From IMG/VR virus record IMGVR_UViG_3300010885_021802, positions 1 to 42,643 of that record: DNA of 42,643 bases. The stretch is one strand, 5' to 3'. Source of the stretch: a virus. A program made the position numbers and the translations under genes. The notes below the pieces were generated by a model. That model ran no database searches and was not told the DNA's origin. It saw only the letters and a program-made list of their open reading frames with translations. Below are positions 448-42,643 of the stretch, one piece after another (position 1 is the first letter of the stretch; each line of letters begins with the position of its first letter).

Positions 448-1036
448 GCAGGTCGATCAGCGCGTTGTAGCGGCGCCTGTCGGCTGAACAGAGGATGGCG
501 TTTTCTCCACCGATACGGATGGCTTCCGTAATGCTATAGGTTCCGATGGCCTCGTCAGTAAGTCCTGCGAGATTACCGAAAACGGGTTCTCCGGTTTGGT
601 TTGACCAACTACCGTCGATGATCCGCACCCCGTCAGCATTAATCCTAATATCAGCGCCACCACCAGGATTAGCGGGATTGCCCACGATGCTCGCGCTACC
701 GCTTGCGGTGTTCGGACAAACTGCGGTTGCCAATACCTTACCTTCGGCAACGCTTGCTCGCCAGCGAGTTTCAGCACTTTGCGCTTTATTTTCTGCACTT
801 TGGAGGCGCTTGCTTGCGTCTGCGGCTTCTTTTTCTCTGGCGATTCGGCGCTCTTTTTCGGCGGCTTCCGCACGTTGGTTCGCAGCAAATTGCTTCGCTT
901 CTGTTTCGGCTTTTCCACGGTTGTAGCCATTGCTATCGACCCTCCAATAGAGTCCTCCAAGTGCCAGTGTGACCGCTAGGATTGCTGCTGCGTACAGGTA
1001 TATCTCTGCGATTACGCCGCGCTGGTTATGCCGCAC
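428..1036 (-). CDS. Rz: Rz-like inner-membrane spanin
   Basis: The 202-residue protein has one N-terminal membrane segment (about residues 11-31, EIYLYAAAILAVTLALGG) followed by a charged coiled coil (about 38-95, rich in E, A, K and R). This is the i-spanin layout: anchored in the inner membrane, reaching across the periplasm to a small outer-membrane lipoprotein and disrupting the outer membrane at the end of lysis. It lies at the end of the late block after the endolysin and an HNH gene. A lipoprotein reading frame is embedded in it (Rz1 entry), the classic arrangement. The roughly 100-residue C-terminal extension beyond the coiled coil is longer than in lambda Rz and is of unknown role. 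Confidence 0.8.
   Translation of the reverse strand: MRHNQRGVIAEIYLYAAAILAVTLALGGLYWRVDSNGYNRGKAETEAKQFAANQRAEAAEKERRIAREKEAADASKRLQSAENKAQSAETRWRASVAEGKVLATAVCPNTASGSASIVGNPANPGGGADIRINADGVRIIDGSWSNQTGEPVFGNLAGLTDEAIGTYSITEAIRIGGENAILCSADRRRYNALIDLLTALRK
457..750 (-). CDS. Rz1: Rz1-like outer-membrane spanin lipoprotein, embedded in Rz
   Basis: In a different frame inside Rz there is a hydrophobic stretch AIPLILVVALILGLM followed by the lipobox LTGC. The cysteine is residue 112 of the open frame that runs from 960. The predicted mature lipoprotein is 56 residues and proline-rich (PENPF, RPSEP, TPSSVQP), as in Rz1 o-spanins. No ATG lies at a suitable distance. A TTG at 748-750 gives a 41-residue signal with K and R in its n-region, and a GTG at 775-777 is an alternative. 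An upstream ATG would give an unusually long basic N-terminus. The identity is well supported by lipobox, context and nesting; the start is not. Confidence 0.68.
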   Translation of the reverse strand: MPKVRYWQPQFVRTPQAVARASWAIPLILVVALILGLMLTGCGSSTVVGQTKPENPFSVISQDLLTRPSEPIALRKPSVSVEKTPSSVQPTGAATTR

Positions 1037-1475
1037 CGAACAACTCCGCTTCGGCTTTCTTTTTATTCTGGCCTAGCCTTACTCTTTCCACAAAGTCAGG
1101 CAAGCGACTGCCATGTCGTCCTTTAGACATCATATCCTGCACATTGTCTTTTTGACTTCCAAGGAATAGATGTGCGGGATTACAGCACGAAGGAACATCG
1201 CAATGATGTAAAACATTCATTTTTTTAGGGATAAGCCCATTTGTAACAGTCCATGCAACCCGATGGGCACATTCAACCGTACCTCTATTGTTCATAAATC
1301 CATAGCCAAATCTGTGTTTTGATTTCCCTGTCCATATCCAACAGGCATCTTTACCGCCTGAACGATCAACACGAAACCAAAGACGACAAGATATAGAGCA
1401 AAAATTTTGTGTATTGTTATCTGGCCGTTCGCGTTGAAAACCATTTCCGCACAGTTTGCAATTATGCAAGCGCAT
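1026..1475 (-). CDS. HNH homing-type endonuclease with zinc ribbon
   Basis: The start is placed at the ATG at 1475 (MRLHNCKLC), because the longer frame runs deep into the endolysin gene. The product is 149 residues. An N-terminal zinc-ribbon-like pair (CKLC, then CSISC) is followed by the HNH core LHHCDVPSCCNPAHLFLGSQ and a NVQDM tail, as in phage HNH_3 endonucleases. These enzymes cut DNA and spread their own gene. It sits between endolysin and Rz, overlapping the endolysin end by 14 bp and Rz by 11 bp. The DNA is visibly richer in A and T than its neighbours, as expected for a mobile insertion into the lysis cassette. Confidence 0.82.
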   Translation of the reverse strand: MRLHNCKLCGNGFQRERPDNNTQNFCSISCRLWFRVDRSGGKDACWIWTGKSKHRFGYGFMNNRGTVECAHRVAWTVTNGLIPKKMNVLHHCDVPSCCNPAHLFLGSQKDNVQDMMSKGRHGSRLPDFVERVRLGQNKKKAEAELFGAA

Positions 1476-1983
1476 TTTTAGCCCGTTCCCAATAAGCCTG
1501 CCGTTCTGCCCATCCGTTAGTGCCGCCGTTAATGCGCTTGGTAATCCGCAAGAAATCCCCCGCATCAGCCAATTCGTTCAGTCCGTGGCTTTTCCAGAAC
1601 CAAGCGGCGCTTCGGCAAGCATTAACAGGTGTTTCGAGCAATTCAGGATTTTCCACGAAATCGACTCCGAGAGCGTCAGAGCAGCGTTGATAGTTCGCCC
1701 TGCCTGTAATCTGTATGAGGCCGCGCCCCTTGAATCTGACCCCATCCCCTGCTTCGGTGTTTCCAAGGTCGCTACGGCCTTCGTAGGAGCTACCAGACGC
1801 AAGTTCCTCAACATAGTGAAATCCCCCTGATTCGTGGGCAAGTTGGGCTAGGAATGCAGCTTCCCGCGCTGGATTGTCAATGTCAAATTCCCGCATTGCA
1901 GCATCCAAGGGAGCCACAAACAATTCCATGCGCTTGACACTAGATACCGGACAAATTGCTTTCAGATCGTCTATGGTAATCAT
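1462..1983 (-). CDS. Endolysin, glycoside hydrolase family 19 (chitinase-like lysozyme)
   Basis: The 173-residue protein is a single GH19 domain that cleaves the glycan strands of peptidoglycan. The catalytic-acid region AHESGGF is at about 50-55 with E51, the second acid is E59 or E60, and the family signature FKGRGLIQITGRANY is at 84-98, followed by NGG at 152-154. There is no signal peptide, so the enzyme should depend on a holin; the membrane protein just upstream is the obvious candidate. The length is typical of phage GH19 endolysins. A small inverted repeat (CTTTTG/CAAAAG, 2002-2022) lies in the 100-bp leader. Confidence 0.92.
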   Translation of the reverse strand: MITIDDLKAICPVSSVKRMELFVAPLDAAMREFDIDNPAREAAFLAQLAHESGGFHYVEELASGSSYEGRSDLGNTEAGDGVRFKGRGLIQITGRANYQRCSDALGVDFVENPELLETPVNACRSAAWFWKSHGLNELADAGDFLRITKRINGGTNGWAERQAYWERAKNALA

Positions 1984-2506: not shown

Positions 2507-4858
2507 TTATTTTATTGCGGTACTTTGTTTCATATTCGGTGGGTCACGCGGGATGCCATTAAGCATCGTCGGGTCAGGATTCTTGTACATTTCTGACAGC
2601 CTGTTTTTAACGCCGACTGCGCCCCTTGCTCCCAATGAACTTGCTTCGGCAGTCATTGCCTGCAAGAACAATCGTTTCGCCCATCCCAATTTTACTTGGT
2701 CGCTTGCACCGCTATTTTCTATGGCACGCAATTGCTGCGATATAGCAAGCGATTCCTCTGCCGACATTAATCCTGCCCTTACCACTCTGCGACTTACCTT
2801 TTCAAAGTCAGCAGATAGATTAGCGACAGACCGTTCCGCATCATTTGCCAGCATTTGACGCACAGCCTGTGATACAGAATCCCTTGCTTTTGGCGACATA
2901 TTGATGACTACTGCTGCCCTTGCAACTTCATCAAAATCACCAGATTTAAATAATTTTGGTATAACTTCTGCATCGTATTTATTCCCAACCATTTCGTCAG
3001 CTAGTTTCTGCACTTCCGTTGTCTGCGTCTTGGCTATGCGCTCTGCATTACGCTGAACTTCTTTGGCAGACGCTTCGGCTATTTTGATTGCTTCGTTTTC
3101 AGCAGCCGTAAGCAACTTAACCTTGGCTTCATTTGCGATTACACCTTTAGCCGCAGTTTCCAATGTATCAGCGTACTTGCTCACAGCCATACGTACTTCC
3201 GGCGCTGCTTTTAGCCAATCCTCATTATTAGTCATCCATCGCCGCACTGTTGCTTGGTTAGCATCGCGCAATTCATTCGTGGCGAAGTCCAGGCCAGCCT
3301 TAGTCGCCAAATCCTTGCTGCCTGTCAATTCCACCAAATCGTTGAATCCTTGCTGCGACTTGAAAAACTGCTTTGGCAGCATGGAAGCGTCATTGGCAAA
3401 CTTAGTCGGATCGTTTCGGTCAAGGGCGGTAAGTTTTGCGCCTGCTTTAGATGCGAATTGCTCAAGGCCAGCGGTGTCATTGGCGTACTTGCTCAATAGT
3501 TGCGACTGTATTCCGTCTTTACCGCCAGCAAATTGCTTCTGAATGTCGGATATTTGGCTGTAATACTTACGCATCATATCGCCCTTGATTGCCTCGTATC
3601 CTTCGGGGGGACGATTGGAGAATATCTCACCAAGCAAGCGGCGAACATCGTCCATTTGCTGAAACGTAACTTTACCTTGACCTTGCTTCCAATCTAGGTT
3701 TTGCCCATTAAGAGCAAGGGCTTTCTCGCCTTCGATAGAGGGTTTAAGCAGAGCAAGTATCTTCGCATACGCATCCTTTACTGGCTGCGAACGTCCGACA
3801 GCATCGTCTGCTAACGACTTTTTAAGCGCCTCAAACTCAGGCATTTTGTCTATCGTTACGCCGCTATTCTCAAGGTTAGAAACCATAGAGTTACGGTCTG
3901 CGACAACCTTATCCCATGCCGCCTTACGAGCCGCCAAAGCGTCAGCATTGCGAGTAGTAACAACATCGCGCAACTCACCACCAATGTCGCTAACCTCACG
4001 ATCTGCGCCAATAGCCAACCGCTGATTTTTAGCCGCAGCAGTCGTTGCTTCGTTCAACTTGGCAAGGTTTTCCTTTGCTGCTTGGAATCCAGCAACCGGC
4101 CCTTTTTGCGCGTCAGATACGATGTTATTTGCAGTCCGGTCAGCCTCACTCAGTATCGTCTTAACCTTCTGCTCATTGAGCGCAATACTGTTATCTGTAG
4201 CCGCTTGCAATTCCTCAAATATCGTCTTGAATGGTGCGTCTGATTTCTCTCCACCACGAAGCGATGCAATGCCATCGGCTATGCGTTTTGTTTCGGCTGC
4301 GCTCAAATCCTCTTTTACGCCAGCAAGGGCTTTCAGGCCACGATAGGCAACGGCTATTTTTCCGCCTGCAATACGAGCCAATCCTGCTGCTTCTGGCGCA
4401 ACAGCGCCAACGCCAAATCTCGCTGCTTCTGCGACGGGCTGTGGCGCATCCATTCCTTCTGCTACCTGACCAGCCGTTTCACTAGCCAAACCGCTGATAC
4501 CACCAGAAATAGCACCAGATATACGCTGACCACGCATAGCGTTACCCATGCCTGACAATGCCGTACCAACGCCAGGAAAGCCTACAGCAGTCGCACCAGC
4601 ACCTATTCCGCCAAGTATTTCAGGAGCCGTAGCACCAGCGACAGCGCCAATTCCGCCAGCACCAGCAATCGCTTCCAATGAGTCAGGGTTAGTTACCCTT
4701 GCGCCGACAGACCTAGCACCTTGGCCAGAAATATTTGGATTACCCATAGCAGCACCGCCTGGGGTATCCATAGTGAATCCAGGCGGCGGTGGCGGAATAT
4801 CGCTTGACGGGTCAAGCGTAAATCCTGGCGGGGGCTGCGGGATTACGGCGTCTGCCAT
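2507..4858 (-). CDS. Large internal virion / DNA-ejection protein candidate
   Basis: The 783-residue protein opens with a twice-repeated proline motif (PPPGFTLD, PPPPPGFTMD), then a glycine- and alanine-rich region with hydrophobic stretches (about 60-175), then a long Ala/Glu/Lys/Gln helical part to the end. P22-like phages carry three ejection proteins (gp7, gp20, gp16) after the tail-hub genes. This gene is the last and largest of three consecutive large genes in that place, so by position it resembles gp16, which is expelled first and helps DNA cross the envelope. I see no enzymatic motif. It overlaps the next upstream gene by 16 bp. Confidence 0.6.
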   Translation of the reverse strand: MADAVIPQPPPGFTLDPSSDIPPPPPGFTMDTPGGAAMGNPNISGQGARSVGARVTNPDSLEAIAGAGGIGAVAGATAPEILGGIGAGATAVGFPGVGTALSGMGNAMRGQRISGAISGGISGLASETAGQVAEGMDAPQPVAEAARFGVGAVAPEAAGLARIAGGKIAVAYRGLKALAGVKEDLSAAETKRIADGIASLRGGEKSDAPFKTIFEELQAATDNSIALNEQKVKTILSEADRTANNIVSDAQKGPVAGFQAAKENLAKLNEATTAAAKNQRLAIGADREVSDIGGELRDVVTTRNADALAARKAAWDKVVADRNSMVSNLENSGVTIDKMPEFEALKKSLADDAVGRSQPVKDAYAKILALLKPSIEGEKALALNGQNLDWKQGQGKVTFQQMDDVRRLLGEIFSNRPPEGYEAIKGDMMRKYYSQISDIQKQFAGGKDGIQSQLLSKYANDTAGLEQFASKAGAKLTALDRNDPTKFANDASMLPKQFFKSQQGFNDLVELTGSKDLATKAGLDFATNELRDANQATVRRWMTNNEDWLKAAPEVRMAVSKYADTLETAAKGVIANEAKVKLLTAAENEAIKIAEASAKEVQRNAERIAKTQTTEVQKLADEMVGNKYDAEVIPKLFKSGDFDEVARAAVVINMSPKARDSVSQAVRQMLANDAERSVANLSADFEKVSRRVVRAGLMSAEESLAISQQLRAIENSGASDQVKLGWAKRLFLQAMTAEASSLGARGAVGVKNRLSEMYKNPDPTMLNGIPRDPPNMKQSTAIK

Positions 4859-6597
4859 TGTCCGTCCTTGAATATCACTTTGCGTCCATTAGGGGCTGTA
4901 GCTGTTGGGTATTTTGGAGCAGAATCCCCGCCAACGATATTTTCACGCATCCTTGCTTTTACATCTTTTGCAGAAGCAGACTCAGTATCAACCTCTCGTT
5001 GCAACTGCCGCGCACCAGCGGCGTAGTCGCCTTTGCTAAATCCAGTTGAAAGAATTTCACGCGCATGGTTTTTGTCCGTATCTGTGGACATACCTTGCGA
5101 GTTAATTGCACGCGCATAGACGTTGATAAGCGCATTATTAGCCGCAGCAAACTCACGCAGTTCAGGGCTTGCTGTACGGCTATCAATGGCAATTTGAATG
5201 TCGTTTAGCGTCTTGTATTCGCCACGATCAAATTTCTCTGATGCGTTAATCGCAATAGGAACAAATTTAGACGTTATATCTGACGCCAAAGCCAACTGTG
5301 CTTGGCGTGTTCCCAAATTCCGTTCACCAGACTTTATACCTTCCCACTCAGCCATTTTTGCGTTTTGCAACGCAGGGCTTCCACCTTCTGTTTTTACGAT
5401 AGCTGCATATTTATCTGTAATTTGCCTTTTTGCTTCCAGATTCCGAGCAAATCCTGTCGCTGCTTGAAAATTACCACCAGCCATTTGACCTGCTATAAGG
5501 TCAACGGCATCATCAGATAGTTTTTTTCCTTCGCCGCTAATTTCTGCTGCAACTAACTTAGTTACTTCCCTTCCAGGCAATCCCGCCGCCACAGCACGCT
5601 CACGTACTCCAGGAACGCCCTGCCCCGCCTTTGGAACGATAGTGGTAGGCGAAGCAACAGGTGCAACCGTTTGTACTGGCTGTGGCGCACCACGCGCCGC
5701 CATCATATCCCGCGCATCCAGATTATCCGAAGGCGCAGGAGTTACGATTGGAGGCATAGCCTGCGGTGCGACTTGCGGTGCGACCTGTGGCATGGGCTGC
5801 GGCATTCCTTGCGGTTGAACTTGCGGCATCGGACGCGGCATCCCGCTTGTAGGGGCAGTTATGTTCTGACCAGCAGCCATAGGAACAGGCGTAAATGCGC
5901 CGTTATCACCCTGCCGCATAGACATACCCAACCCTTGCTGACTCTGCGAATTTACCGCATCAAAGGCTGCTATTTCAGCAGGGTCAGTAATTGCCTGCCC
6001 GTCAGCGGTCATCAGCCTTCCTTGCGGCATTCCGTTTGGTACAGGGGCGCGTTGCGGTATATTAAGCGCAGGGACAGTCATTCCGGTGTTATACAAAAGA
6101 TTGGCAGCACCAACAGCAGCCGCCTGACCCTGTAACGCCTCAGTTACCTTGTTATGATCTTCAATAATCCTGTTGCGTTCTTCTGCTGTTTTGGCATTCC
6201 TCAGTTTTATATCTGTATCGTCTTTCTGCTTGTTTATCTGCGCCTGAATCCGCATTGCCGCCATTTCCTTATTTCCAGCAATCGTAGCGTTCTTATTCGC
6301 CTCAGTCTGGAACATAGAAGCAACGTCTTTTGCGCCGATAAGACCAGAAGCAACAGCAGCAGCAAGCACCTTCTCATGTGGCGCATTCGGGCCGAGAGCA
6401 GCAACGTCTTGACGAAACTTATCCTCTCGCACGCGAGCATTGGCAGCTGCAGCCTGATCCTGAAACCCGCTTTGCAGCCGCATAAACTGATTAGCATTCG
6501 CCAGTTCAGCCGTACCCTGCTGCTGGTCGAATTGCTGCTTGGCGAGATAGCCGCCGAGTCCTGGGATGCTGCCTAGAACGTCCGAGAGTTGCGCCAT
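4843..6597 (-). CDS. Internal virion / DNA-ejection protein candidate, Pro-Gln-Met repeat
   Basis: The 584-residue protein has a helical, glutamine-rich N-terminal part (1-165) and a low-complexity segment at about 252-285 built from MPQV/APQ/QGMPQ units. The C-terminal helical domain ends KYPTATAPNGRKVIFKDGQW, a small terminal strand motif common in phage structural proteins. It is the middle of three large ejection-protein candidates. The high Gln and Ala content and the lack of enzymatic motifs fit a protein threaded out through the portal. The exact counterpart (gp20 or gp7) cannot be fixed without a profile search. Confidence 0.55.
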   Translation of the reverse strand: MAQLSDVLGSIPGLGGYLAKQQFDQQQGTAELANANQFMRLQSGFQDQAAAANARVREDKFRQDVAALGPNAPHEKVLAAAVASGLIGAKDVASMFQTEANKNATIAGNKEMAAMRIQAQINKQKDDTDIKLRNAKTAEERNRIIEDHNKVTEALQGQAAAVGAANLLYNTGMTVPALNIPQRAPVPNGMPQGRLMTADGQAITDPAEIAAFDAVNSQSQQGLGMSMRQGDNGAFTPVPMAAGQNITAPTSGMPRPMPQVQPQGMPQPMPQVAPQVAPQAMPPIVTPAPSDNLDARDMMAARGAPQPVQTVAPVASPTTIVPKAGQGVPGVRERAVAAGLPGREVTKLVAAEISGEGKKLSDDAVDLIAGQMAGGNFQAATGFARNLEAKRQITDKYAAIVKTEGGSPALQNAKMAEWEGIKSGERNLGTRQAQLALASDITSKFVPIAINASEKFDRGEYKTLNDIQIAIDSRTASPELREFAAANNALINVYARAINSQGMSTDTDKNHAREILSTGFSKGDYAAGARQLQREVDTESASAKDVKARMRENIVGGDSAPKYPTATAPNGRKVIFKDGQWQTP

Positions 6598-11728: not shown

Positions 11729-12346
11729 CTATGGCATATCAGGCCAAAACCTGTTGCCTTTGCTAATGTTCGCCTTCGATTGAATTACACGAAGATTATT
11801 TTCAATATGCAAACCGCAAACAATAGCCGATTGCAACGGCACAATATGGTCAACGGAATGCCTTATCCCAAGACATTTTGTTCTTAACTGCGCTAGATGG
11901 TAAATCTCACGCATAAAAAATTTGTTAGCACATACTGGCGTTGCTTGTTTTACTGTGCAACGCTTTACGGACTCATATTCGGCAGAACGAGCGCGATAAT
12001 ACTCCTTGTTTTTAGCAATCCATTCATGCTTTATACTCAGCATTTTTTCAGGATTTTCTTGATAACGCGCTCTAGTTGCATCGCGTATTTTCACCCTGTT
12101 TTCTTTGCTGTATATCTTGTGACGTTCTTGATTTCTTTCTTTATTGTTTTCTCTGTACAATTTGTGCGTTATCGCTATTTTTTCTTTATTTTTTGCATAC
12201 CACTCACGATTCAAAGCGTTAAGTGATTCACGGTTAGCAGAACGCCAAATAGAATCCTTTTCTTTTCTGGCAATACGCGCAGCCTTCACCCTATCTGGAT
12301 GCCTAGCCCGATATGCGGCTGTTCTCTCGGCTGGCGTCTTTCTCAC
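11729..12346 (-). CDS. HNH endonuclease with YxxxN repeat DNA-binding region
   Basis: The 205-residue protein starts at a GTG overlapping the upstream stop (GTGA). Its N-terminal two thirds is a string of basic helical repeats with the spacing Y-x3-N-x-E (YAKNKEKI, YRENNKER, YSKENRVKI, YQENPEKM), probably for DNA contact. The C-terminus is the HNH core HSVDHIVPLQSAIVCGLHIENNLRVI with N and K following. It is a homing-type nuclease inserted between the gp4-like gene and the tail fibre. The DNA is strikingly A+T-rich beside its neighbours, with many T runs on the plus strand, a sign of recent arrival. Confidence 0.85.
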   Translation of the reverse strand: MRKTPAERTAAYRARHPDRVKAARIARKEKDSIWRSANRESLNALNREWYAKNKEKIAITHKLYRENNKERNQERHKIYSKENRVKIRDATRARYQENPEKMLSIKHEWIAKNKEYYRARSAEYESVKRCTVKQATPVCANKFFMREIYHLAQLRTKCLGIRHSVDHIVPLQSAIVCGLHIENNLRVIQSKANISKGNRFWPDMP

Positions 12347-13350
12347 CCGTTATCTCCTTGCCACATACCTTCGCGCCCAGGCTGAAAGTAAGAACTTGAA
12401 TTCTGCGGATTCAACTCCCGCGCAATCGCCATCGCAGCCTTGTAGTTTCCGTCCATCTCAGGCGTCCATGTTTTTCCATAAGGCACGCATACCTGCTTGG
12501 TCAATTCCCAAGTCAACGGCAAAAACCACTCCTGCGGGTACTCAATATCGTTCGCGCTTGAGTCGTAATTCATCGACGGATACAGCACGGTCAGGCGTAA
12601 CTGCTTGGTTACGTCTTGCGGCCAGTAGTCCAGCGTAATCCGCGTATTCGTCTGCAACGGTTCGCACAGCACGTTCAGCGGATCGCCAAGCGATGCCTTT
12701 TGCGGCAAACGCTCGTATTGCTGCACATCGGTATAAATTCCCATGTACAAATCAATGCTGTTGCTATCCCGAAGGTTGGCATATTCTAGGACAGGAAACC
12801 GCTGCGCCTTAGCCGTGTACCAATAGACATATGCACCAGCCGCAGCGCCAACGGTGAGCGCATCATTGACAATGACAGTCGGCCCTGCACCAGTCGATGA
12901 AATCGTTGTCCATTGCAGCGTTCCGTCAGTCTGGACAATGCCAATTTTGTCAGCCGCAGTCATCGTTACCGTAGTTCCCGGCTGCGTTGTCGTATCAGTA
13001 ACCGCAGTAATACTCAACGTAGTCTGTCCAGCCGCCTCTGCCGCGCTTATCGTTGTCCTGCCGTACTGCGTAGTCGCATTCGTATCGGTTGCGCCAAATC
13101 CAATCAAGTATGTCGGCTGGTTCTTGGCAAGGAACATCGTCACTCGTTGGCGCGACTGCATATGAAAGCCAGGGGCCATATCCGCATTGCCCTGATACTG
13201 CTTGGCAATCTGGTTCAACCGACTAAGCGCAAGCGTTGTATCGTTCGCGCTTGGCGTACCACCAGCTTCGATGATGTTCAGGTTTTCGTACATCGCAGTT
13301 ATTACTTGCAATGCAGTAACACTGTAATTGTATGTCCCGCTTGTACTCAC
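12343..13350 (-). CDS. P22 gp4-like tail accessory / head-to-tail adaptor protein
   Basis: The 335-residue protein starts at a GTG overlapping the upstream stop by 4 bases. The N-terminus is helical (ALQVITAMYENLNIIEAGG, SRLNQIAKQYQGN), and the C-terminus has EYPQEWFLPLTWELTKQVCVPYGK, the segment I associate with gp4-type proteins, then a helical end. In between is a beta insertion (about 95-175, Thr-rich). In P22, gp4 forms the ring beneath the portal to which gp10 and the tailspikes attach. A gp10-like gene nearby and a P22-type portal agree with this. Confidence 0.7.
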   Translation of the reverse strand: MSTSGTYNYSVTALQVITAMYENLNIIEAGGTPSANDTTLALSRLNQIAKQYQGNADMAPGFHMQSRQRVTMFLAKNQPTYLIGFGATDTNATTQYGRTTISAAEAAGQTTLSITAVTDTTTQPGTTVTMTAADKIGIVQTDGTLQWTTISSTGAGPTVIVNDALTVGAAAGAYVYWYTAKAQRFPVLEYANLRDSNSIDLYMGIYTDVQQYERLPQKASLGDPLNVLCEPLQTNTRITLDYWPQDVTKQLRLTVLYPSMNYDSSANDIEYPQEWFLPLTWELTKQVCVPYGKTWTPEMDGNYKAAMAIARELNPQNSSSYFQPGREGMWQGDNG

Positions 13351-14924
13351 GCGGCCTCCCGCTTATCTAACTCGCTGCGAATGGCATCCCATACAGCCAT
13401 TGGCGTTATTGATGCTTGGCATTTGGCTATCCCGCTTTCGCCATCCTGATTGCACTGTTCCCATCTGTAGATTAGCTTGTGACAAGGGTAACATTTCGTA
13501 TCAACGGGAACCATCGCCTGCGTATTAACCCAATCCCGCGTCAGATTTTCTTCGGTTGAGTGCGACAGGAATACCACCTTTTTCATCGGCTCCATTGCAA
13601 CCGCACTCATTACGCCCGTTTCCGGCCCAATAACCATATCGCAGTTATACGCCATCGCCATCGTTTCACGGATTGACCATACGCCAGAGCGCCGCAATAC
13701 CCGCGATTCATTGACCCACGGTGCTTCAATAATCTCTTTTGCAGACTCGTCGCCAACCATGATGACCTTGGCGTGAGGCCATTGCACCATGATTCGGGCA
13801 ATGATTGAGTCAAATCCGGTAGCCTTGTTATTTACGTCCTCGCCGCCTGACCATATCTTGTGCAGCGCAGAGCCTTTTAGCACCCACATAATCAGCGGAT
13901 TGGCATTGAATACGCGCTTCTCACGCACTACCCATTTCTTTTCTTCGTCGGTAATCGAAAACCGTGACAGCGGCTTTTTATAAGGCACGCCAGCCAGTTT
14001 ATGCGTGAACTCAAGGTAGTTGAGATTCATTACCATGTGCCGCGCTTCGGTAGTCCAATTTGCTTGAACACGCTCAGGCATGGCAAGCAATGAGCCTTCT
14101 ACGGACTCAGACAGGTTGATAAACTTGTCGTACCGTGGGCGCAAGTAATCCCAATAGTCGCCAAGCCACGCATTAGGTACTTGGTCGGTGTCTTGGATAA
14201 CAAATCGGTCAATCAACGGTTCGTGCTTGATCGCTTCCAGTGCGCGGGGAACGGTGAACAGGGTAATGTGGTATCCCTGCTCTTTCAGCCCAGGCAATAT
14301 GCTGGAAGTCTGGATTACATCGCCCCAAGCACCATAGCGGATAATCGCACAGGTCTTTTCAGGCTTTGGCTTGTCATGGGAAAATTTGTGAATCGAAGCA
14401 TTGGCGAATTTTTTGTAGACTTGGAAGAACGAGTATTCCTTACCCTCGTTGCGTTCCTGATTCTCTACCAAATCCCATCCCCCAATTTCCTCCATTGCAT
14501 CAATAATGTCCTGCGGCAGAAAATCGTGTACATGGTCAGGGTTGCATCCTTCCGTTCCAATGTTCGGGTAAAAGTCCTTGTGCGGGAGATATAAGCACAA
14601 ATAGCCGCCCAATTTCAGCACTCTCCACCACTCACGCAACGCCTTTTTATAGTCTTTTATATGCTCAAGCGTGTGGCTGGAAAAAACAAAATCCATCGAC
14701 TGACTGGCAAACATATCCAGCTTGTCGGCATCCGTCCGAATGTCCGGTACGAATTGAATGTTGAATAACTGCGTGTCCTTGTTGTTATCTACCCGCGTAA
14801 AGTGCGGGAAAGCCTGTGATGGGCCGCAACCAACGTCTAAACCGCGTCCTTTCGTATAGGGAACTAACTCCCAACGGATTTTGCCCGTTTCGTTTCCCTG
14901 ATCGTCGGTTGCAGCCCATGTCAT
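13347..14924 (-). CDS. Fusion of SAM methyltransferase and GT9-like glycosyltransferase
   Basis: The 525-residue protein has two enzyme domains. Residues about 15-175 are a class I SAM-dependent methyltransferase with GLDVGCG (28-34), an acidic residue after strand 2, and the methyltransferase 11 segment FSSHTLEHIKD (81-91). Residues about 190-520 resemble glycosyltransferase family 9 (heptosyltransferase-like): RYGAWGDVIQTSSILP at 196-211 and GPETGVMSAVAM in the C-terminal Rossmann half. Four cysteines cluster near the end (CYPC, C, C). It lies inside the head/tail structural block, coupled to the gp4-like gene. It may decorate virion proteins or host surface sugars; the acceptor is unknown. 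Confidence 0.8.
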   Translation of the reverse strand: MTWAATDDQGNETGKIRWELVPYTKGRGLDVGCGPSQAFPHFTRVDNNKDTQLFNIQFVPDIRTDADKLDMFASQSMDFVFSSHTLEHIKDYKKALREWWRVLKLGGYLCLYLPHKDFYPNIGTEGCNPDHVHDFLPQDIIDAMEEIGGWDLVENQERNEGKEYSFFQVYKKFANASIHKFSHDKPKPEKTCAIIRYGAWGDVIQTSSILPGLKEQGYHITLFTVPRALEAIKHEPLIDRFVIQDTDQVPNAWLGDYWDYLRPRYDKFINLSESVEGSLLAMPERVQANWTTEARHMVMNLNYLEFTHKLAGVPYKKPLSRFSITDEEKKWVVREKRVFNANPLIMWVLKGSALHKIWSGGEDVNNKATGFDSIIARIMVQWPHAKVIMVGDESAKEIIEAPWVNESRVLRRSGVWSIRETMAMAYNCDMVIGPETGVMSAVAMEPMKKVVFLSHSTEENLTRDWVNTQAMVPVDTKCYPCHKLIYRWEQCNQDGESGIAKCQASITPMAVWDAIRSELDKREAA

Positions 14925-31962: not shown

Positions 31963-32175
31963 CTATTTATCAGCGTCTATCAGAGCAATCGCTTCGTCGG
32001 CGGTTATGTTGCGCGTCTTGGCAAGGCGCTGAAATTCATGGGCGAGCGCGTCATAGTGCAGGGATAGCGTTCCGGCACAAATCATCGCATCAGCGTATTT
32101 TTTCTCTCGCGTATAGGACAGCATGAGTTTGTGGCGCTCTGGAATCATCGCGGTTATTTCTGCATAATCAATCAT
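31963..32175 (-). CDS. Small helical protein, unknown
   Basis: A 70-residue helical protein (MIDYAEITAMIPERHKLMLS) with two cysteine-free helical halves (LHYDALAHEFQRLAKTRN and an acidic end). Its start overlaps the stop of the PP-loop gene by 4 bases (ATGA). No family is recognised. Confidence 0.5.
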   Translation of the reverse strand: MIDYAEITAMIPERHKLMLSYTREKKYADAMICAGTLSLHYDALAHEFQRLAKTRNITADEAIALIDADK

Positions 32176-32945
32176 ACTTGCGCCTCATCGTAGCATCCAC
32201 AGTCAATCTCTATCCGCGACTCATACGGAAACATATCAATCTGTGCTTCGTTCCATGCCAGCAAATCGCGCCATGCGAAATCACGGCCAAGCCCTTTTAC
32301 CGTATGCAGTTCGGCGTTGTTCTCCATCGCAACAGCACGCGCAGCAAGGTCTGGATAGTCGCGCTTGAGAGCCAGTATTTCCCCACGCTTGCTAGAGGGG
32401 CAGTAGAAACACGCACTTTTGCCAGCCGGTCTTAATCCGGCACGCTTAATTGCATCTACGCATTCCTCGCGCCCCCAATTCCATTCTATTAACGGGTAGC
32501 GGTACAGGTATTTATCATCCTCCGGTATCTTTGCTCGATGCGGCTCGTCCATGTCGTAACCTATTAGCTTTGTGACTTTCTGGCCTGACTTCCAAAAGTC
32601 TTTAGCCGGTTGCCAGTTGTTGCAATACTTATCCTGCGGATCACGCTTGTATTTCAGAGAGCAAGCCTTAAACCCGTAGGCAATGCTTGGCAACATCTTC
32701 CCGTCTAAGCAGTCCTGCTCAAGTGTTCGGACTTCACCCGCTCTGTTCGTGCGTTTAACCGTGATTATTTCAGGCATACCGTGTTTAACCAAGTAGCGGG
32801 AAAAGTCAGACACAAAAGAGTAAGTATCAGGACGTTCGCCGCCCGTATCGGCAAACAGAATCAAGTCGCACGTTTCCCCGCGCTCAACCATGCCGATCAG
32901 CATCGCTGTGGAGTTTGTGCCGCCGCCGTAGGAAACTACTATCAT
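32172..32945 (-). CDS. PP-loop ATPase, PAPS-reductase-like (copy 1)
   Basis: The 257-residue protein has an N-terminal PP-loop SYGGGTNST (5-13), the nucleotide-binding site that adenylates substrates in the PAPS reductase/DndC/ThiI superfamily. LILFADTGGERPDTY (28-42) follows, then CSLKYKR (C95), GY-DMDEPHR (129-136), and a CxxC at C179/C182 with RGE after it. One cysteine plus a CxxC may hold a metal or Fe-S cluster. It is unlikely to make sulfite for the host. Modification or thiolation of nucleic acid is the more usual guess for phage members; the substrate is unknown. Confidence 0.8.
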   Translation of the reverse strand: MIVVSYGGGTNSTAMLIGMVERGETCDLILFADTGGERPDTYSFVSDFSRYLVKHGMPEIITVKRTNRAGEVRTLEQDCLDGKMLPSIAYGFKACSLKYKRDPQDKYCNNWQPAKDFWKSGQKVTKLIGYDMDEPHRAKIPEDDKYLYRYPLIEWNWGREECVDAIKRAGLRPAGKSACFYCPSSKRGEILALKRDYPDLAARAVAMENNAELHTVKGLGRDFAWRDLLAWNEAQIDMFPYESRIEIDCGCYDEAQV

Positions 32946-33130: not shown

Positions 33131-33341
33131 TGCTGCATCCCTGTATCTGCGGCGCGAGTGACGGAACCTTGCGGAATTCCTCGCAGCGTTTAAGTTGGTC
33201 ATTCATGGCTTGCGGCGGAACGTATGTCTTCCACGATTGCATGACTCCGCTGAAATCCTTTTTCCGCAGCAATTGTTCCTCAATAGCCTTCGCATACTCA
33301 TGGAAATGCGTTACGCCTGTCTTGCCGGATTTGGTTTTCAT
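33120..33341 (-). CDS. Small basic protein between PP-loop genes, unknown
   Basis: A 73-residue protein (MKTKSGKTGVTHFHEYAKAI) with basic helices and a Pro/Gln-rich end. It overlaps both neighbours, so it is in one translational unit with the PP-loop genes. No family is recognised. Confidence 0.45.
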   Translation of the reverse strand: MKTKSGKTGVTHFHEYAKAIEEQLLRKKDFSGVMQSWKTYVPPQAMNDQLKRCEEFRKVPSLAPQIQGCSNGE

Positions 33342-34096
33342 GCTTCCCCCTTCTCGGTTAAAAATTCTGACTCTGCCAATTCACAAAATATGCCGCACTG
33401 AATTTCAGGCTCATCTTGATACCGGCCTATTCCTACAGGCAATTCGTCTAGGAAAATACGCTTGCCAGAATCGCGCACCATACGCACGCCTAACGCCCTT
33501 GATGTTTCTGCCATGCGCGTAAATTGCACAGGGAAATCAATACGCATTTTATTGAAATATCCTGCACCTGTAGCCTTAACGCACATGATGCAATTGTTAT
33601 GCTGATAGCCCAACTTATACATTACGGGCAACTCTATCCCTGCGTTCTGTATCATCGCCAAGCAATCCTTATGCTGCAAGCTAGATTCAATCAGTGGCGC
33701 AATGGCATCAATGTTATTGGCATCCAAAAATCTATCCCATCTATCTTGTTCCTCTGAACAGTAGCCAAAAATGTGCCTATCGTTAGGCAACTGAAATTCC
33801 TCGCGTACACGCTTCTTTAATTCCATCGTGCAAGGCGCACCGGCAATGCCGCTGATGTATTTGCGCTGGCGTATAACCTCGTACACGCTCCCGTCATACT
33901 TTTCAGCAATCAGGTTGGTAATGGGCTTGCCAAACCATTTCTCGCAGTCAGTCGCAAAACGGTCATTATCAGGGTGTTCCTCGCGCACAATACAGCGAGC
34001 GATAACCATATCTGGATATTGCTTTAGCGCAATCTTAGTTGCAACTGCACTTGCAGCGCCGCAACTAAACCATGATACGACTCGCATTAGCCGCAC
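33338..34096 (-). CDS. PP-loop ATPase, PAPS-reductase-like (copy 2)
   Basis: The 252-residue protein has the PP-loop variant SWFSCGAASAVATKIAL (8-24), followed by VIARCIVREEHPDNDRF. It shares the spaced pattern of copy 1: a cysteine before a helix (C89, GAPCTMELKK), GY-CSEEQDR (111-119) and a CxxC about 80 residues later (C169/C172). A second ATG at 34087 is an equally good start. The two copies look like diverged paralogues on one transcript. The VRR-NUC gene directly upstream overlaps it by 10 bp. Confidence 0.78.
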   Translation of the reverse strand: MRLMRVVSWFSCGAASAVATKIALKQYPDMVIARCIVREEHPDNDRFATDCEKWFGKPITNLIAEKYDGSVYEVIRQRKYISGIAGAPCTMELKKRVREEFQLPNDRHIFGYCSEEQDRWDRFLDANNIDAIAPLIESSLQHKDCLAMIQNAGIELPVMYKLGYQHNNCIMCVKATGAGYFNKMRIDFPVQFTRMAETSRALGVRMVRDSGKRIFLDELPVGIGRYQDEPEIQCGIFCELAESEFLTEKGEA

Positions 34097-38298: not shown

Positions 38299-38456
38299 AG
38301 CCCACCGACCCTCCCCGCTGCCCGATATGTCAAGTGCCGAAGCCTTTTACAGCCGTATGGTGCTGCTATGCCGGAAAGGGATGCACTGAAACTGACCAGC
38401 GGCATCCTAACGAGGAAACTCGCAACATAATCGAAGGAAAGGCACTAAACGAATGA
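38295..38456 (+). CDS. Very small zinc-finger-like protein
   Basis: A 53-residue frame (MKPTDPPRCPICQVPKPFTA) with CPIC, then CC and a further C (VWCCYAGKGC), which could bind zinc. Both ends overlap neighbouring genes in the ATGA manner, so it is co-translated with the exonuclease partner and the aminotransferase-fold gene. Confidence 0.55.
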   Translation: MKPTDPPRCPICQVPKPFTAVWCCYAGKGCTETDQRHPNEETRNIIEGKALNE

Positions 38457-39673
38457 GAGTACCCGCATCAGGCGCAGTCATTGGCCTAGCAGAGAAAAAA
38501 GCGATGCACGATGCCGTTGATGCTGGATGGCTGACTGCGGGGCCGATTAACGCGGCATTTGAGGCGAAATTATCCGCATTCACCGGAATACGCCATGTCA
38601 GGACTTGTAACAGCGGATCGTCGGCAAACTTACTCGCCGTAGCCGCAATGGTCGCATCAGGCAGATGGAAGGCTGGCGACGAGATTATTACGTCAGCGGT
38701 AGGCTTTCCGACTACGGTTAATCCGTTGCTTCTCTATGGGCTTGTGCCGGTGTTTGTTGATGTGGAGTTGGGGACGTATAACCCGACGATGTTTAAGATT
38801 GAGGCGGCTATTACTGCTAAAACAACCGGATTGATGATGGCGCATACACTTGGGAATTCGTTTGCTCCTGCAATTAACTGCAAGTTAGAAACTAAAGGTA
38901 TCTACGTTGTAGAGGATTGCTGCGATGCGCTAGGTTCTATGCACCACCTTAAAAGTGACTTCGGGAAAAATAATCATCATTGTCACGTTGGCGTTGGCGC
39001 TGCAATAGCCACCTTCTCATTTTTCCCCGCGCACCACATAACGACAGGCGAGGGCGGCGCAGTAATGACGCAGGATGCCGACCTGTTACGCCATATCGAA
39101 GCCCTGCGCGATTGGGGCAGAGATTGCTGGTGTGCGCCAGGACAAAATAACACTTGCGGTAAGCGTTTTGACCAACAATTTGGGGAGTTACCTTATGGGT
39201 TCGATCACAAATACTGCTTTAGCCATGCAGGGTTCAATCTCAAGATTACCGAAATACAAGCAGCTTGTGGCATTGCACAATTTGACCGTCTTAGCGGTTT
39301 CATTGAAAAGCGTTGCTCCAATTTTGATTATCTCTACAAAAGATTGTCAGAAGGAAAAGCGGAAGATAGTTTTATTTTGCCGCGCTTTTCGAAAGGTGTT
39401 TCCCCGTTCGGCTTCCCTATCACCATCAAAAAAGAAGGCGAAAGGCTCGCGCTTACGTCCTACCTCGCAGAAAAAGGCATCGACACGCGCCTAATCTTCG
39501 GCGGCAACCTGACCAAGCAGCCGTACATGAAAGGTCGTAACTTTCGCATAGCCGAACCGCTAATCAACGCCGACAAGGTTATGAACGATACGTTCTGGAT
39601 TGGCGTATGGCCTGGATTGTCGGAGGATGACTTGGCGTATGCGTGCGATACGATAGAGGAATTTTTCGCATGA
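38453..39673 (+). CDS. rfbH-like: RfbH/DdhC-like CDP-4-keto-6-deoxyglucose 3-dehydrase (Fe-S, PMP-dependent)
   Basis: The 406-residue protein has the DegT/DnrJ/EryC1 aminotransferase fold. In SFFPAHHITTGEGGAV the PLP-binding lysine is replaced by His (H194), the hallmark of the E1 3-dehydrase that removes the C3 hydroxyl of CDP-4-keto-6-deoxyglucose. The four [2Fe-2S] cysteines expected for E1 are present: C157 (EDCCDAL), C225 and C227 (RDCWC), and C235 (NTCGKR). A His-rich insertion (about 164-178) is unusual. The reductase partner and the enzymes making the substrate are not in this genome, so the host must supply them. Confidence 0.88.
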   Translation: MRVPASGAVIGLAEKKAMHDAVDAGWLTAGPINAAFEAKLSAFTGIRHVRTCNSGSSANLLAVAAMVASGRWKAGDEIITSAVGFPTTVNPLLLYGLVPVFVDVELGTYNPTMFKIEAAITAKTTGLMMAHTLGNSFAPAINCKLETKGIYVVEDCCDALGSMHHLKSDFGKNNHHCHVGVGAAIATFSFFPAHHITTGEGGAVMTQDADLLRHIEALRDWGRDCWCAPGQNNTCGKRFDQQFGELPYGFDHKYCFSHAGFNLKITEIQAACGIAQFDRLSGFIEKRCSNFDYLYKRLSEGKAEDSFILPRFSKGVSPFGFPITIKKEGERLALTSYLAEKGIDTRLIFGGNLTKQPYMKGRNFRIAEPLINADKVMNDTFWIGVWPGLSEDDLAYACDTIEEFFA

Positions 39674-40248
39674 CAGCCGAAGAACTAATCGCTTTCGAGC
39701 AAGACATATTCCGCGAGTTTGAAGCGGGGCATATTCGTGGGCCGATACATTTGTCAGGAGGCAACGAGCAGCAACTAATCGACATTTTTAAGCGCATCAA
39801 GCGCACCGATTGGGTATTTTCAACATGGCGCAATCACTATCACGCCCTACTGCATGGCGTTCCAAAAGGTAAATTGCGCGATGAAATACTTGCTGGCAGG
39901 AACATGAATTTTTCCAGCAAGGAACACAACTTTTTTACGTCTGCAATCGTTGGTGGCACGCTGTCGATTGCCTGCGGAGTCGCCTATGCGCTGCGAGATA
40001 CGGGGCATCATGTATGGTGCTTCGTGGGCGACATGGCGGCAAGTACCGGCGCATTTTGGGAGGCTGATTCGTTCAGTTTTCTCAATGACCTGCCGATTAC
40101 GTTTGTGGTTGAGGATAACCGATTCTCTGCGGATAGCCCTACCGACGAGTGTTGGGGAGATAACCCATCCGAGCGAAAGGTGATTACCTACGCCTATGAG
40201 CGCACCCTGCCGCACGCTGGCATTGGCAAATGGGTGTCATTCAAATGA
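39670..40248 (+). CDS. Thiamine-diphosphate enzyme, miniature E1-alpha-like subunit
   Basis: The 192-residue protein (overlap of 4 bases upstream) resembles the thiamine-diphosphate-binding domain of dehydrogenase E1-alpha and transketolase. WVFSTWRNHYHALLHGVP matches the RdHG region. GGTLSIACGVAYAL is followed by the cofactor motif starting GDM at 120-122 and ending DN at 149-150, a degenerate GDG...NN with the usual spacing. Full E1-alpha proteins are about 350 residues, so this is a minimal PP-type domain. Together with the next gene it could form an enzyme adding a two-carbon unit to a keto sugar, as in branched sugar pathways (inference). Confidence 0.75.
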   Translation: MTAEELIAFEQDIFREFEAGHIRGPIHLSGGNEQQLIDIFKRIKRTDWVFSTWRNHYHALLHGVPKGKLRDEILAGRNMNFSSKEHNFFTSAIVGGTLSIACGVAYALRDTGHHVWCFVGDMAASTGAFWEADSFSFLNDLPITFVVEDNRFSADSPTDECWGDNPSERKVITYAYERTLPHAGIGKWVSFK

Positions 40249-40763
40249 CCTACCTAACCGCAATCCAGCGCGAAATGAAGCGGCTATCCGAGGATAAGCG
40301 CACCCTCTTTGTAGGTCAGGCTGTCGAGTATCCAGGCCAAGCGATGCACGCAACGCTCAAAGACGTACCGATGGAAAAGCGTCTAGAAATGCCGGTTATC
40401 GAAAACTTCCAAATGGGATTTTGTACCGGACTGGCTTTGCAGGGATACATCCCTATCTGCATATTCCCGCGTTTTGATTTTCTGATATGCGCTACTGACC
40501 AGCTAGTCAACCACTTAGACAAGATACCGGCAATGACCGATTGGCGTCCAAAGGTGATTATCCGCACATCAGTCGGCGCAGTATCGCCGCTGAATCCAGG
40601 GCCGCAGCATTGCCAGAATCACTTTTTTGCCATGCACGAAATGTTGCAAAATATCAGAATTTATCAAGCCAAAAGCGAATCTGATATACCTATTATTTAT
40701 GAGAAGGCGATGGAATTTGATGGCTCCACTTTAATTATTGAGCATGGGGAGAAATATCTGTGA
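40245..40763 (+). CDS. Thiamine-diphosphate enzyme, miniature E1-beta-like subunit
   Basis: The 172-residue protein corresponds to the pyrimidine-binding domain of E1-beta or transketolase. LEMPVIENFQMGFCTGLALQG contains the catalytic glutamate E53, followed by PRFDFLICATDQLVNHLDKI as in E1-beta proteins. The transketolase C-terminal domain is missing, so only the cofactor-binding domain is kept. The 4-base overlaps with both neighbours suggest equal production with the alpha-like subunit. Split enzymes of similar size (such as the sulfopyruvate decarboxylase type) are an alternative comparison. Confidence 0.75.
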   Translation: MTYLTAIQREMKRLSEDKRTLFVGQAVEYPGQAMHATLKDVPMEKRLEMPVIENFQMGFCTGLALQGYIPICIFPRFDFLICATDQLVNHLDKIPAMTDWRPKVIIRTSVGAVSPLNPGPQHCQNHFFAMHEMLQNIRIYQAKSESDIPIIYEKAMEFDGSTLIIEHGEKYL

Positions 40764-41596
40764 AGTCGTATTTCATAACAGGCGGTACAGGCTTTATCGG
40801 CAGGGAATTGGTACGCCAGTTAGTCAAGCGCGACGATACCGGCCTGATAACGTGCCTGACGCGGGGGCATCGCAAGTATTCGGAACTGCTGCAAGCCGAG
40901 AAGGTGCTGTACCGGATTGGCGATGTTACCGAGTGCGAATTCCCTGATTACGCCTACACAGACGTAATTCACGGCGCAAATGAAGTAAATGACCTCCTAC
41001 AGCCTGACCTGCCCAAGTATTATTACACGATTGTCGAGGGTAGCAACAGGGTATTGGATTGGGCGTCTAGGAAGGGCTATAACACGCTTCTGCTGTCATC
41101 TGGCGCTGCTGACAGGGATACTGTCTATGGACGGGCAAAACGGCAGAGCGAGTTTCTAGCGCGTCATTACGGCGGCGTCAAGATAGCCCGTATCTTTTCC
41201 GTTTTGGGCAACGAAATGCCGCTGAATGGGCAGTATGCGGCGGGGAAGTTTATCCACATGGCGATGCAGGGAAAGGTGTCTGTCTATGGCGGGGATTCGA
41301 TGCGCTCGTATTTGCACGTTGAGGACTGTGCGCGGGGGTTGCTGCGGATATTGGAAGCGGGTCAGCCGCTAAAGCCCTATGACGTAGCTGGAAACCAGCC
41401 AATCTCTATTCGTAACCTTGCAGAGCGCATTGCCATTGAATTTGAAGTTCCATGCGAGTACACGACTGCCCATAGCCGTAAAGATACATACGTTCCAGAC
41501 CTACGCGCAATCGAATCATTAGGCTTCAAGCAAACATTTTCTCTAAACCGTACCTTGGAGGTAGTCTGTGATTTCATTCGTCATTCCAACAAATAA
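40760..41596 (+). CDS. NAD-dependent epimerase/dehydratase or 4-reductase of sugar nucleotides
   Basis: The 278-residue protein (GTG start) is an extended short-chain dehydrogenase with GGTGFIG (8-14) and catalytic residues in SSGAAD (113-118) and YGRAK (Y123, K127). LHVEDCARGLLRIL at about 185-198 is typical of NDP-sugar epimerases. In pathways using RfbH, such an enzyme reduces the C4 keto group (abequose, paratose or tyvelose branch) or processes a branched product. The exact reaction cannot be read from sequence alone. It overlaps the glycosyltransferase gene by 29 bp. Confidence 0.85.
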   Translation: MKSYFITGGTGFIGRELVRQLVKRDDTGLITCLTRGHRKYSELLQAEKVLYRIGDVTECEFPDYAYTDVIHGANEVNDLLQPDLPKYYYTIVEGSNRVLDWASRKGYNTLLLSSGAADRDTVYGRAKRQSEFLARHYGGVKIARIFSVLGNEMPLNGQYAAGKFIHMAMQGKVSVYGGDSMRSYLHVEDCARGLLRILEAGQPLKPYDVAGNQPISIRNLAERIAIEFEVPCEYTTAHSRKDTYVPDLRAIESLGFKQTFSLNRTLEVVCDFIRHSNK

Positions 41597-42643
41597 CCGC
41601 GCCAAAGAGTTAGAAGTCTGCATCCGGTCAATAGCCGACCAGATTATGCAGTTTCCAACAGAGGCAAATATCATTGTCATTGACGATGGCTGCACAGACA
41701 ATACGCCTGAATTGGTCGAGCAACTTGGCGAGCAATACGGCTGCATAACCTATTGCCGCTATGACAAGCACAAGGACTATTCTGACGTATTTCGGACGAT
41801 GTTTTGTATTGCTGCCAAGTCAGATTGGGTATGGACGTTTGGCGACGATGACCGGCTGCAAAAGGGCGCTCTCAAGTTTATCCTGGCGCAACTCAAAGCC
41901 GAGTCAGAGCATGAGAATCCAGCCGTATTCTTCCACATTGCAGAGGCGGCAAGGGCATCAGGACGATCAGGCGCATTCCGTGGGGCGATGCTAGACATAG
42001 CGCAGAACTTTGGCCTGATTGAAATGACTGGATTCATTACTGGAAATATCTGCCGTGGTTATATGCTTGCAGAGGCAGCAGACACGCCAAGGTGGAACGA
42101 ATACGCCAAGTCAGCGTTTGTCCAATCCTTTGCCCTGTTTGAACGCCTACAGCATGAGCAAATGGTATTCCTAGACATACCGCTAATCGCCACGCAATAC
42201 GCCGACCAGAACGAAGAAACGCAGCAACGATGGGCGCGTGACAATATCTCGTACCGCTACCTCTATACCGTCACCGCCATACAGCGTATGTACGACGATG
42301 GCATTCTGACTCAAAAGTTTAATCCCAAGTTCTTCCGCTATCTCTCGTACCACCTGTGGGATAGGTTCATACACTATTACACAGGCGACTATCTCGCCTA
42401 TGAGCGTATGTGGCCGCAGGAAGCATGGTCGATGATTGGCAAGTTTGCCGATTTTCTCAATGACGAGGAAGCCGCCAATAAGTTACGCCAAACTGTCGAA
42501 GCCGTAAGCGGGATGATTACCCTGCATATGTTTATGAAAAAGAATCTGGACGGGATTTACTTGGAGATTAAATCCGTATCAGAGCAGCATGGAACGGCGT
42601 GCTATCCGTGGCACTTTGTCGAGCCATTGCTGGCAGAAGCGCC
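41568..42643 (+). CDS. GT-A glycosyltransferase, 5' part (continues at 1-139)
   Basis: The gene starts at a GTG behind GGAGGT and runs off the window end, to finish at 139 on the circular map (363 residues). The N-terminus MISFVIPTNNRAKELEVCIRSI and NIIVIDDGCTDNT (35-46), then WTFGDDDRL with the DxD-type D93-D95, are the GT-A, family 2 features. The C-terminal half is helical and aromatic-rich. It resembles transferases that add dideoxyhexoses such as abequose, which would fit the upstream RfbH-like gene. The acceptor is unknown. Confidence 0.85.
   Translation, partial: MISFVIPTNNRAKELEVCIRSIADQIMQFPTEANIIVIDDGCTDNTPELVEQLGEQYGCITYCRYDKHKDYSDVFRTMFCIAAKSDWVWTFGDDDRLQKGALKFILAQLKAESEHENPAVFFHIAEAARASGRSGAFRGAMLDIAQNFGLIEMTGFITGNICRGYMLAEAADTPRWNEYAKSAFVQSFALFERLQHEQMVFLDIPLIATQYADQNEETQQRWARDNISYRYLYTVTAIQRMYDDGILTQKFNPKFFRYLSYHLWDRFIHYYTGDYLAYERMWPQEAWSMIGKFADFLNDEEAANKLRQTVEAVSGMITLHMFMKKNLDGIYLEIKSVSEQHGTACYPWHFVEPLLAEA
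42521..42643. repeat. Terminal direct repeat, right copy
   Basis: Identical to 1-123; see the left copy. The genome length without the repeat is 42,520 bp. Confidence 0.95.

Follow-up and report, generated by a model that had tools for sequence, protein, structure and literature searches.

The phage record IMGVR_UViG_3300010885_021802 (42.6 kb; its whole stretch of 42,643 nucleotides is called the window below) carries at its right end a cassette of five coupled plus-strand genes, which probably synthesizes a yersiniose-type 3,6-dideoxyhexose with a branch at C4 and attaches it to an acceptor. The genes encode, in this order, an RfbH-type sugar 3-dehydrase, the two subunits of a small thiamine diphosphate (ThDP) enzyme of the E1 type (mini-E1α and mini-E1β), a reductase of the short-chain dehydrogenase/reductase (SDR) family and a GT2 glycosyltransferase. 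A description made earlier from the sequence alone (the sequence-only reading) had counted four enzymes and a glycosyltransferase. The genes are indeed genuine, but the four enzymes reduce to three activities, because E1α and E1β are subunits of one enzyme. In related phages the place of this pair is taken by other ThDP enzymes.

Genes of the cassette

The cassette lies after a YqaJ-type recombinase gene and spans from 38453 to 42643, finishing at 139 past the terminal repeat. The window ends in a direct terminal repeat of 123 bp (1–123 are equal to 42521–42643), and therefore the last gene runs across the junction. Each of the five reading frames is genuine and has a family match, and the consecutive overlapping arrangement given by the sequence-only reading is correct.

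RfbH (38453–39673, plus strand; 406 amino acids, DegT fold) scored 504 bits against the NCBIfam RfbH equivalog NF011936 over its full length, where the cut-off is 423. It aligned end to end with PDB 3bcx, the solved structure of a cytidine diphosphate (CDP)-6-deoxy-4-hexulose 3-dehydrase (E = 3e-126). H194 occupies the position of the pyridoxal phosphate lysine and equals the residue mutated in 3bb8. The four ligands of the [2Fe-2S] cluster are all kept in the alignment with 3bcx (C157, C225, C227 and C235); the cysteine pattern used was C-X57-C-X1-C-X7-C, and the window RfbH has an insertion in the first spacer. Judged by profile and catalytic residues, the protein is a nucleoside diphosphate (NDP)-4-keto-6-deoxyhexose 3-dehydrase. 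RfbH with pyridoxamine phosphate (PMP) and a reductase converts CDP-4-keto-6-deoxyglucose to CDP-3,6-dideoxy-4-ketohexose.

The mini-E1α gene (39670–40248, plus strand; ~192 amino acids, beginning MTAEEL) has its true start at ATG 39670, as indicated by the surrounding sequence, and shares an ATGA with the stop of RfbH. The mini-E1β gene (40245–40763, plus strand; ~172 amino acids) starts at ATG 40245 in a second ATGA overlap, with the end of E1α. The α subunit matched PF00676 (E1_dh) and the β subunit PF02779 (Transket_pyr), and they correspond to the N-half and the C-half, respectively, of the fused phage family phrog_34187. From alignments of 25 (α) and 16 (β) sequences, the ThDP/Mg cofactor-binding residues G129-D130 and E157-D158-N159 of E1α (numbered on the 201-residue open reading frame opening at 39643) and the cofactor-activating glutamate E58 of E1β (177-residue frame) were invariant among the aligned relatives. 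The AlphaFold models (pLDDT 85 for α and 93 for β) were nearest in Foldseek to E1α and E1β of 2-oxoacid dehydrogenases. By domain and fold match, the enzyme is thus of the E1 type and not of the YerE type, which is acetolactate synthase-like.

The pair consists of the diphosphate (PP) and pyrimidine (PYR) domains only, as compared with ~330 amino acids for a full-length α subunit, and E1β is without the C-terminal transketolase_C domain. On the basis of the sequences and the models, it is a pared-down pyruvate dehydrogenase E1 with intact cofactor residues and no E2-binding domain. A role in a ketoacid dehydrogenase complex is unlikely because transketolase_C is missing from E1β. No E2 was present among the window genes scanned either, and a pyruvate dehydrogenase role was rejected.

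The SDR gene (40760–41596, plus strand; 278 amino acids) starts in a GTGA overlap with E1β. The product is an extended SDR, a predicted sugar-nucleotide reductase/epimerase, which carries GxxGxxG and YxxxK and matched PF01370 (NAD-dependent epimerase/dehydratase). Its nearest relative, 45% identical, is in phage L001, described below, next to genes for RfbH and for a YerE-like enzyme; no close relative was found among the viral contigs searched. The start of the GT2 gene, at 41568, falls within the 3′ end of the SDR gene; the gene runs to 42643 and continues from 1 to 139 across the junction (plus strand; 363 amino acids in all). The protein matched PF00535, has a DDD motif at residue 93 and is soluble, with no transmembrane segment in the hydropathy profile. 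It is not accompanied by a flippase or a polyprenol partner.

Elsewhere in the window genome, no NTP_transferase, no Fer2 (RfbI-type reductase) and no above-cut-off GDP_Man_Dehyd (4,6-dehydratase) was detected. The absence of the cytidylyltransferase and the 4,6-dehydratase reported by the sequence-only reading was thereby confirmed, and DdhA, DdhB and DdhD would need to be supplied by the host.

Exchange of the ThDP gene among viral RfbH loci

Sixty-two viral contigs with RfbH relatives were fetched, and the 42 with enough flanking sequence were counted; 64 phage loci, on contigs sharing the YqaJ gene of the window, served as controls. A ThDP enzyme was located near RfbH in 34 of the 42 viral loci and in none of the controls (Fisher p = 2e-20), and an SDR was also present in 31 of those 34 (0/64 in the controls). 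In other phages, RfbH is not regularly found without sugar genes beside it. The partner was YerE-like in 30 loci and a split transketolase in four, and the window holds a third type, the E1 pair. The YerE-like gene was either whole (593 amino acids in L002) or split, after ~335 amino acids in the L005 group and after ~170 in the L001 and L037 group. A tie between the cassette and the YqaJ recombination module was considered and rejected, as none of the YqaJ-sharing contigs has the cassette.

In a tree of 48 RfbH proteins (viral only), one clade with support of 100/98 unites all three partner types: the E1 pair in the window, YerE in L001 and the majority of the related phages, and split transketolase in L004, L018 and L021. 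L002 and L021 share 96.9% DNA identity over a 4.9-kb stretch that closes with RfbH, and 86.7% from the SDR onward. Between these parts, positions 9206–10987 of L002 encode a YerE-like enzyme and positions 9206–10910 of L021 encode TktN-TktC. This is an exact natural replacement of the ThDP gene alone. A second exchange was found between L018 and L012, whose RfbH proteins are 92% identical, and here the SDR was swapped too.

L001 (IMGVR_UViG_3300042983_000001) is related to the window phage, with identities of 58% for the head protein, 49% for the portal and 53% for a methyltransferase-glycosyltransferase protein. Its cassette, RfbH-YerE-SDR-GT, has the same order as that of the window, with a split YerE in the middle (RfbH 55%, SDR 45% and GT 37% identical). 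The L001 cassette lies immediately upstream of the terminase gene and in the same direction, whereas the window cassette is on the strand opposite to the late genes and after the recombination genes. From this difference in place and orientation, the cassette has moved or was gained separately.

We tentatively suggest, at somewhat less than even probability, that phages carry a fixed RfbH-SDR frame with a swappable YerE-like, split-transketolase or mini-E1 carboligase. Close relatives would thus place different C4 branches (acyl groups from various 2-keto acids, glycolyl or acetyl) on one and the same deoxysugar, and their surface or virion glycan would diversify more quickly than through point mutation.

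Bacterial counterparts

RfbH was present in 36 of 398 sampled Pseudomonadota genomes, and 20 bacterial RfbH regions were read out. DdhA-like and DdhB-like genes were found beside RfbH in nearly all of them, and many also had YerE-like genes (L292, L296, L298 and L303 are examples), with the SDR after the ThDP gene. In two Pseudomonadota loci, L304 (1693–4470, minus strand) and L308 (8215–11000, plus strand), a split transketolase (TktN-TktC) and then an SDR follow DdhA-DdhB-RfbH. The keto-sugar split transketolases reviewed in PMC12247030 are all from Streptomyces, and their occurrence beside RfbH in phages and Pseudomonadota goes beyond these examples. As read from gene content, the bacterial loci hold the complete pathway and the phage has its second half. 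One further bacterial locus, L291, contains a full-length E1α/E1β pair (3608–5660, minus strand) at ~13 kb from RfbH (18516, minus strand), together with RmlC-like, GmhA-like and nucleotidyltransferase-like genes.

Proposed pathway

Three classes of ThDP enzyme, YerE-like enzymes, αKADH2 and split transketolases, have an established or proposed role in the branching of keto sugars (PMC12247030). YerE joins acetaldehyde from pyruvate to the C4 ketone of CDP-3,6-dideoxy-4-ketohexose to give the yersiniose precursor (PMC12247030). For the αKADH2 enzyme KbDH-α/β, a reaction of pyruvate with analogues of keto sugars has been shown in vitro (PMC12247030), the E1-type pairs AviB1/B2 and Pau11/12 have been proposed for the branching of antibiotic sugars (PMC4753412, PMC12247030), and split transketolases are the proposed branching enzymes in miharamycin and amipurimycin (PMC12247030). 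Thiamine-dependent C-branching of sugars has been described for a small number of O-antigens and antibiotics; the YerE-like branching enzymes belong to lipopolysaccharide, and the E1 and transketolase types to antibiotics (PMC12247030). Because the ThDP enzymes of the phage slot belong to the same three types, the E1 pair most likely carries out the branching step in the window cassette.

From the gene identities, the catalytic residues, the operon structure and the interchangeable ThDP slot, we infer the chemistry of the steps, the nucleotide and the acceptor as follows. With the help of PMP and the [2Fe-2S] cluster, RfbH would take the 3-hydroxyl off an NDP-4-keto-6-deoxyhexose made by the host, probably CDP-4-keto-6-deoxyglucose, and a host reductase would supply the electrons. 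E1α/E1β would then act as a carboligase and not as a dehydrogenase: a short 2-keto acid, pyruvate or another, would be decarboxylated and its acyl (acetyl) unit joined to the C4 ketone. This acyl transfer is suggested by the YerE that fills the same slot in the relatives. The SDR would reduce the branch ketone to a hydroxyalkyl group, and the soluble GT2 would, in the cytoplasm, transfer the completed sugar to an acceptor, most likely a nascent host surface glycan and otherwise a virion protein. The sequence-only reading had proposed the same combination of RfbH, thiamine branching enzyme, reductase and glycosyltransferase, and it is supported by gene identity, catalytic residues and comparative genomics, in which YerE-like enzymes or split transketolases fill the slot in phages and in bacterial O-antigen-like loci. 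Its host-fed CDP-sugar is supported as to the host supply of a sugar nucleotide; the nucleotide itself may be CDP or guanosine diphosphate (GDP), because some related phages pair RfbH with Gmd (GDP-mannose dehydratase) and Fcl (GDP-fucose synthase).

Alternative explanations

Modification of a nascent host glycan and decoration of the virion are both possible fates of the sugar. Transfer to the phage's own virion proteins instead of the host surface is the less probable of the two. It is favored by the solubility of GT2, which has no flippase or polyprenol partner, by the L001 cassette lying directly upstream of the terminase and co-directed with it, and by a methyltransferase and glycosyltransferase-like protein among the structural genes that is more than 50% conserved in related phages. 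The position of the window cassette, on the strand opposite to the late genes and after the recombination genes, points the other way, as do the relatives of the GT and of the whole cassette in bacterial glycan loci. The protein among the structural genes (13347–14924, minus strand; 525 amino acids) has an N-terminal S-adenosylmethionine methyltransferase domain and is more than 50% identical in the related phages G001 and G002. Its C-terminal part reads by eye like a heptosyltransferase-type (GT9) fold, with no profile confirming this; a possible role of the protein is in modifying glycans of the virion or the host.

The sequence-only reading had inferred a function resembling lysogenic conversion or virion decoration, which might alter receptor sugars or block superinfection. 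Lysogenic conversion is unsupported, because the window genome yielded no tyrosine integrase (serine integrases were not looked for). This result and the soluble GT without a flippase or polyprenol partner argue against classical seroconversion.

Several observations weigh against the proposed pathway. No second locus among those examined pairs a true RfbH with a mini-E1, and the main uncertainty is that the pairing is that of the window genome alone. The nearest relatives of the window E1α (54–65% identical), part of a smaller group within its family, mostly adjoin genes for GmhA, a PfkB-like sugar kinase and a cytidylyltransferase, and the native substrate of the window pair could differ because its closest mini-E1s are neighbors of heptose genes. 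The window RfbH is 54–55% identical to some bacterial RfbH proteins, and because it is equally near to these and to that of L001 (55%), it may have been acquired from bacteria separately. Finally, the RfbI-type electron donor is missing from the window genome. This is not unusual, because only 4 of the 20 bacterial regions have an RfbI-type reductase motif near RfbH, and 16 do not.

The E1α neighborhoods lead to another explanation, which we consider improbable: the mini-E1 pair would serve a heptose-type or other sugar-phosphate pathway and have joined RfbH by chance, and RfbH-SDR-GT alone would make a plain 3,6-dideoxyhexose. Abequose, paratose and tyvelose are classically made by way of RfbH and an SDR. 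Relatives of the window E1α are encoded in at least 257 viral stretches and in 18 bacterial or archaeal ones, and most of this family is accompanied by RmlC-type epimerases (nearby in 57 of 94 clustered loci). However, the four-base overlaps place E1α/E1β within the RfbH-SDR operon, the pair sits in the slot held by YerE or transketolase in the relatives, and no heptose-pathway gene was found among the window genes scanned. In the mini-E1 phage contigs L069–L143, E1α and E1β are often several genes apart.

Phages do glycosylate DNA with glycosyltransferases, and the window has two nearby PAPS (3′-phosphoadenosine 5′-phosphosulfate) reductase-like genes (32172–32945 and 33338–34096, both minus strand; phrog_424), which could fit a sugar placed on phage DNA as an anti-restriction modification; this is very unlikely because no thymidylate synthase/hydroxymethylase-type gene that would create an acceptor base is present in the window. 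It is conceivable but very unlikely that the ThDP enzyme also passes electrons to the iron-sulfur cluster of RfbH in place of RfbI. Synthesis and transfer of a C4-branched 3,6-dideoxyhexose is the reading that we prefer.

Genome setting

The minus strand of the window carries the structural genes, including those for the endolysin, head closure protein, major head protein, portal and terminase. As regards a possible host, relatives of the portal are found in Vibrio and Escherichia coli phages (~35%) and the recombination region is like that of an Acetobacter phage. In a promoter and terminator scan, sites were no more numerous than in shuffles. An HNH endonuclease gene (1026–1565, minus strand; PF13392) and a second small protein (11729–12346, minus strand), of the homing-endonuclease type by eye, are also present.

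Comparison with known systems

rfbH has already been reported as a viral gene (PMC11295528, PMC10653327). Among the open-access papers searched, none was found to describe yersiniose or other sugar-branching cassettes in phages, a partnership of RfbH with an E1-type enzyme, or a switch of the ThDP gene. What looks new is that the branching step is exchangeable and that RfbH is paired with a mini-E1, while RfbH in phages is known. Phages use all three ThDP branching types alternatively within a single gene order, and in two almost identical phages one type has replaced another in a nearly seamless natural exchange; this exchange makes the role of the uncharacterized E1-type and split-transketolase enzymes testable by matched comparison. 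The exchange also suggests that phages could be a source of new carboligases and of diversity in glycans.

The L001 cassette differs from that of the window in its split YerE-like gene, its terminase neighbor and its late-gene direction. The mini-E1 proteins of phrog_34187, such as those of the cyanophages S-SM2 and P-TIM68, are homologous minimal E1 enzymes, but in these cyanophages they are single fused chains beside a Zn-alcohol dehydrogenase and heptose-type genes, not RfbH. The αKADH2 antibiotic pairs (AviB1/AviB2, Pau11/Pau12 and KbDH-α/β) are likewise two-subunit E1-like ThDP enzymes beside NDP-sugar genes, and ketoreduction follows in several cases (PMC4753412, PMC12247030). The window subunits differ from them in having only the PP and PYR domains, in the RfbH partner, and in lying in a phage cassette of the glycan type and not in an antibiotic cluster. 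GtrABC seroconversion cassettes of temperate phages also carry a glycosyltransferase thought to act on host glycans; unlike them, the window cassette has no membrane GT and no GtrA flippase was seen, and the sugar itself would be synthesized. The yersiniose A pathway of Yersinia pseudotuberculosis (DdhA-DdhB-DdhC/RfbH-DdhD, YerE and a reductase) has the same layout in one operon, with RfbH followed by the ThDP enzyme and the reductase. The window cassette differs from it in being phage-borne, in leaving out DdhA, DdhB and DdhD, and in carrying an E1α/β-type pair in the place of YerE.

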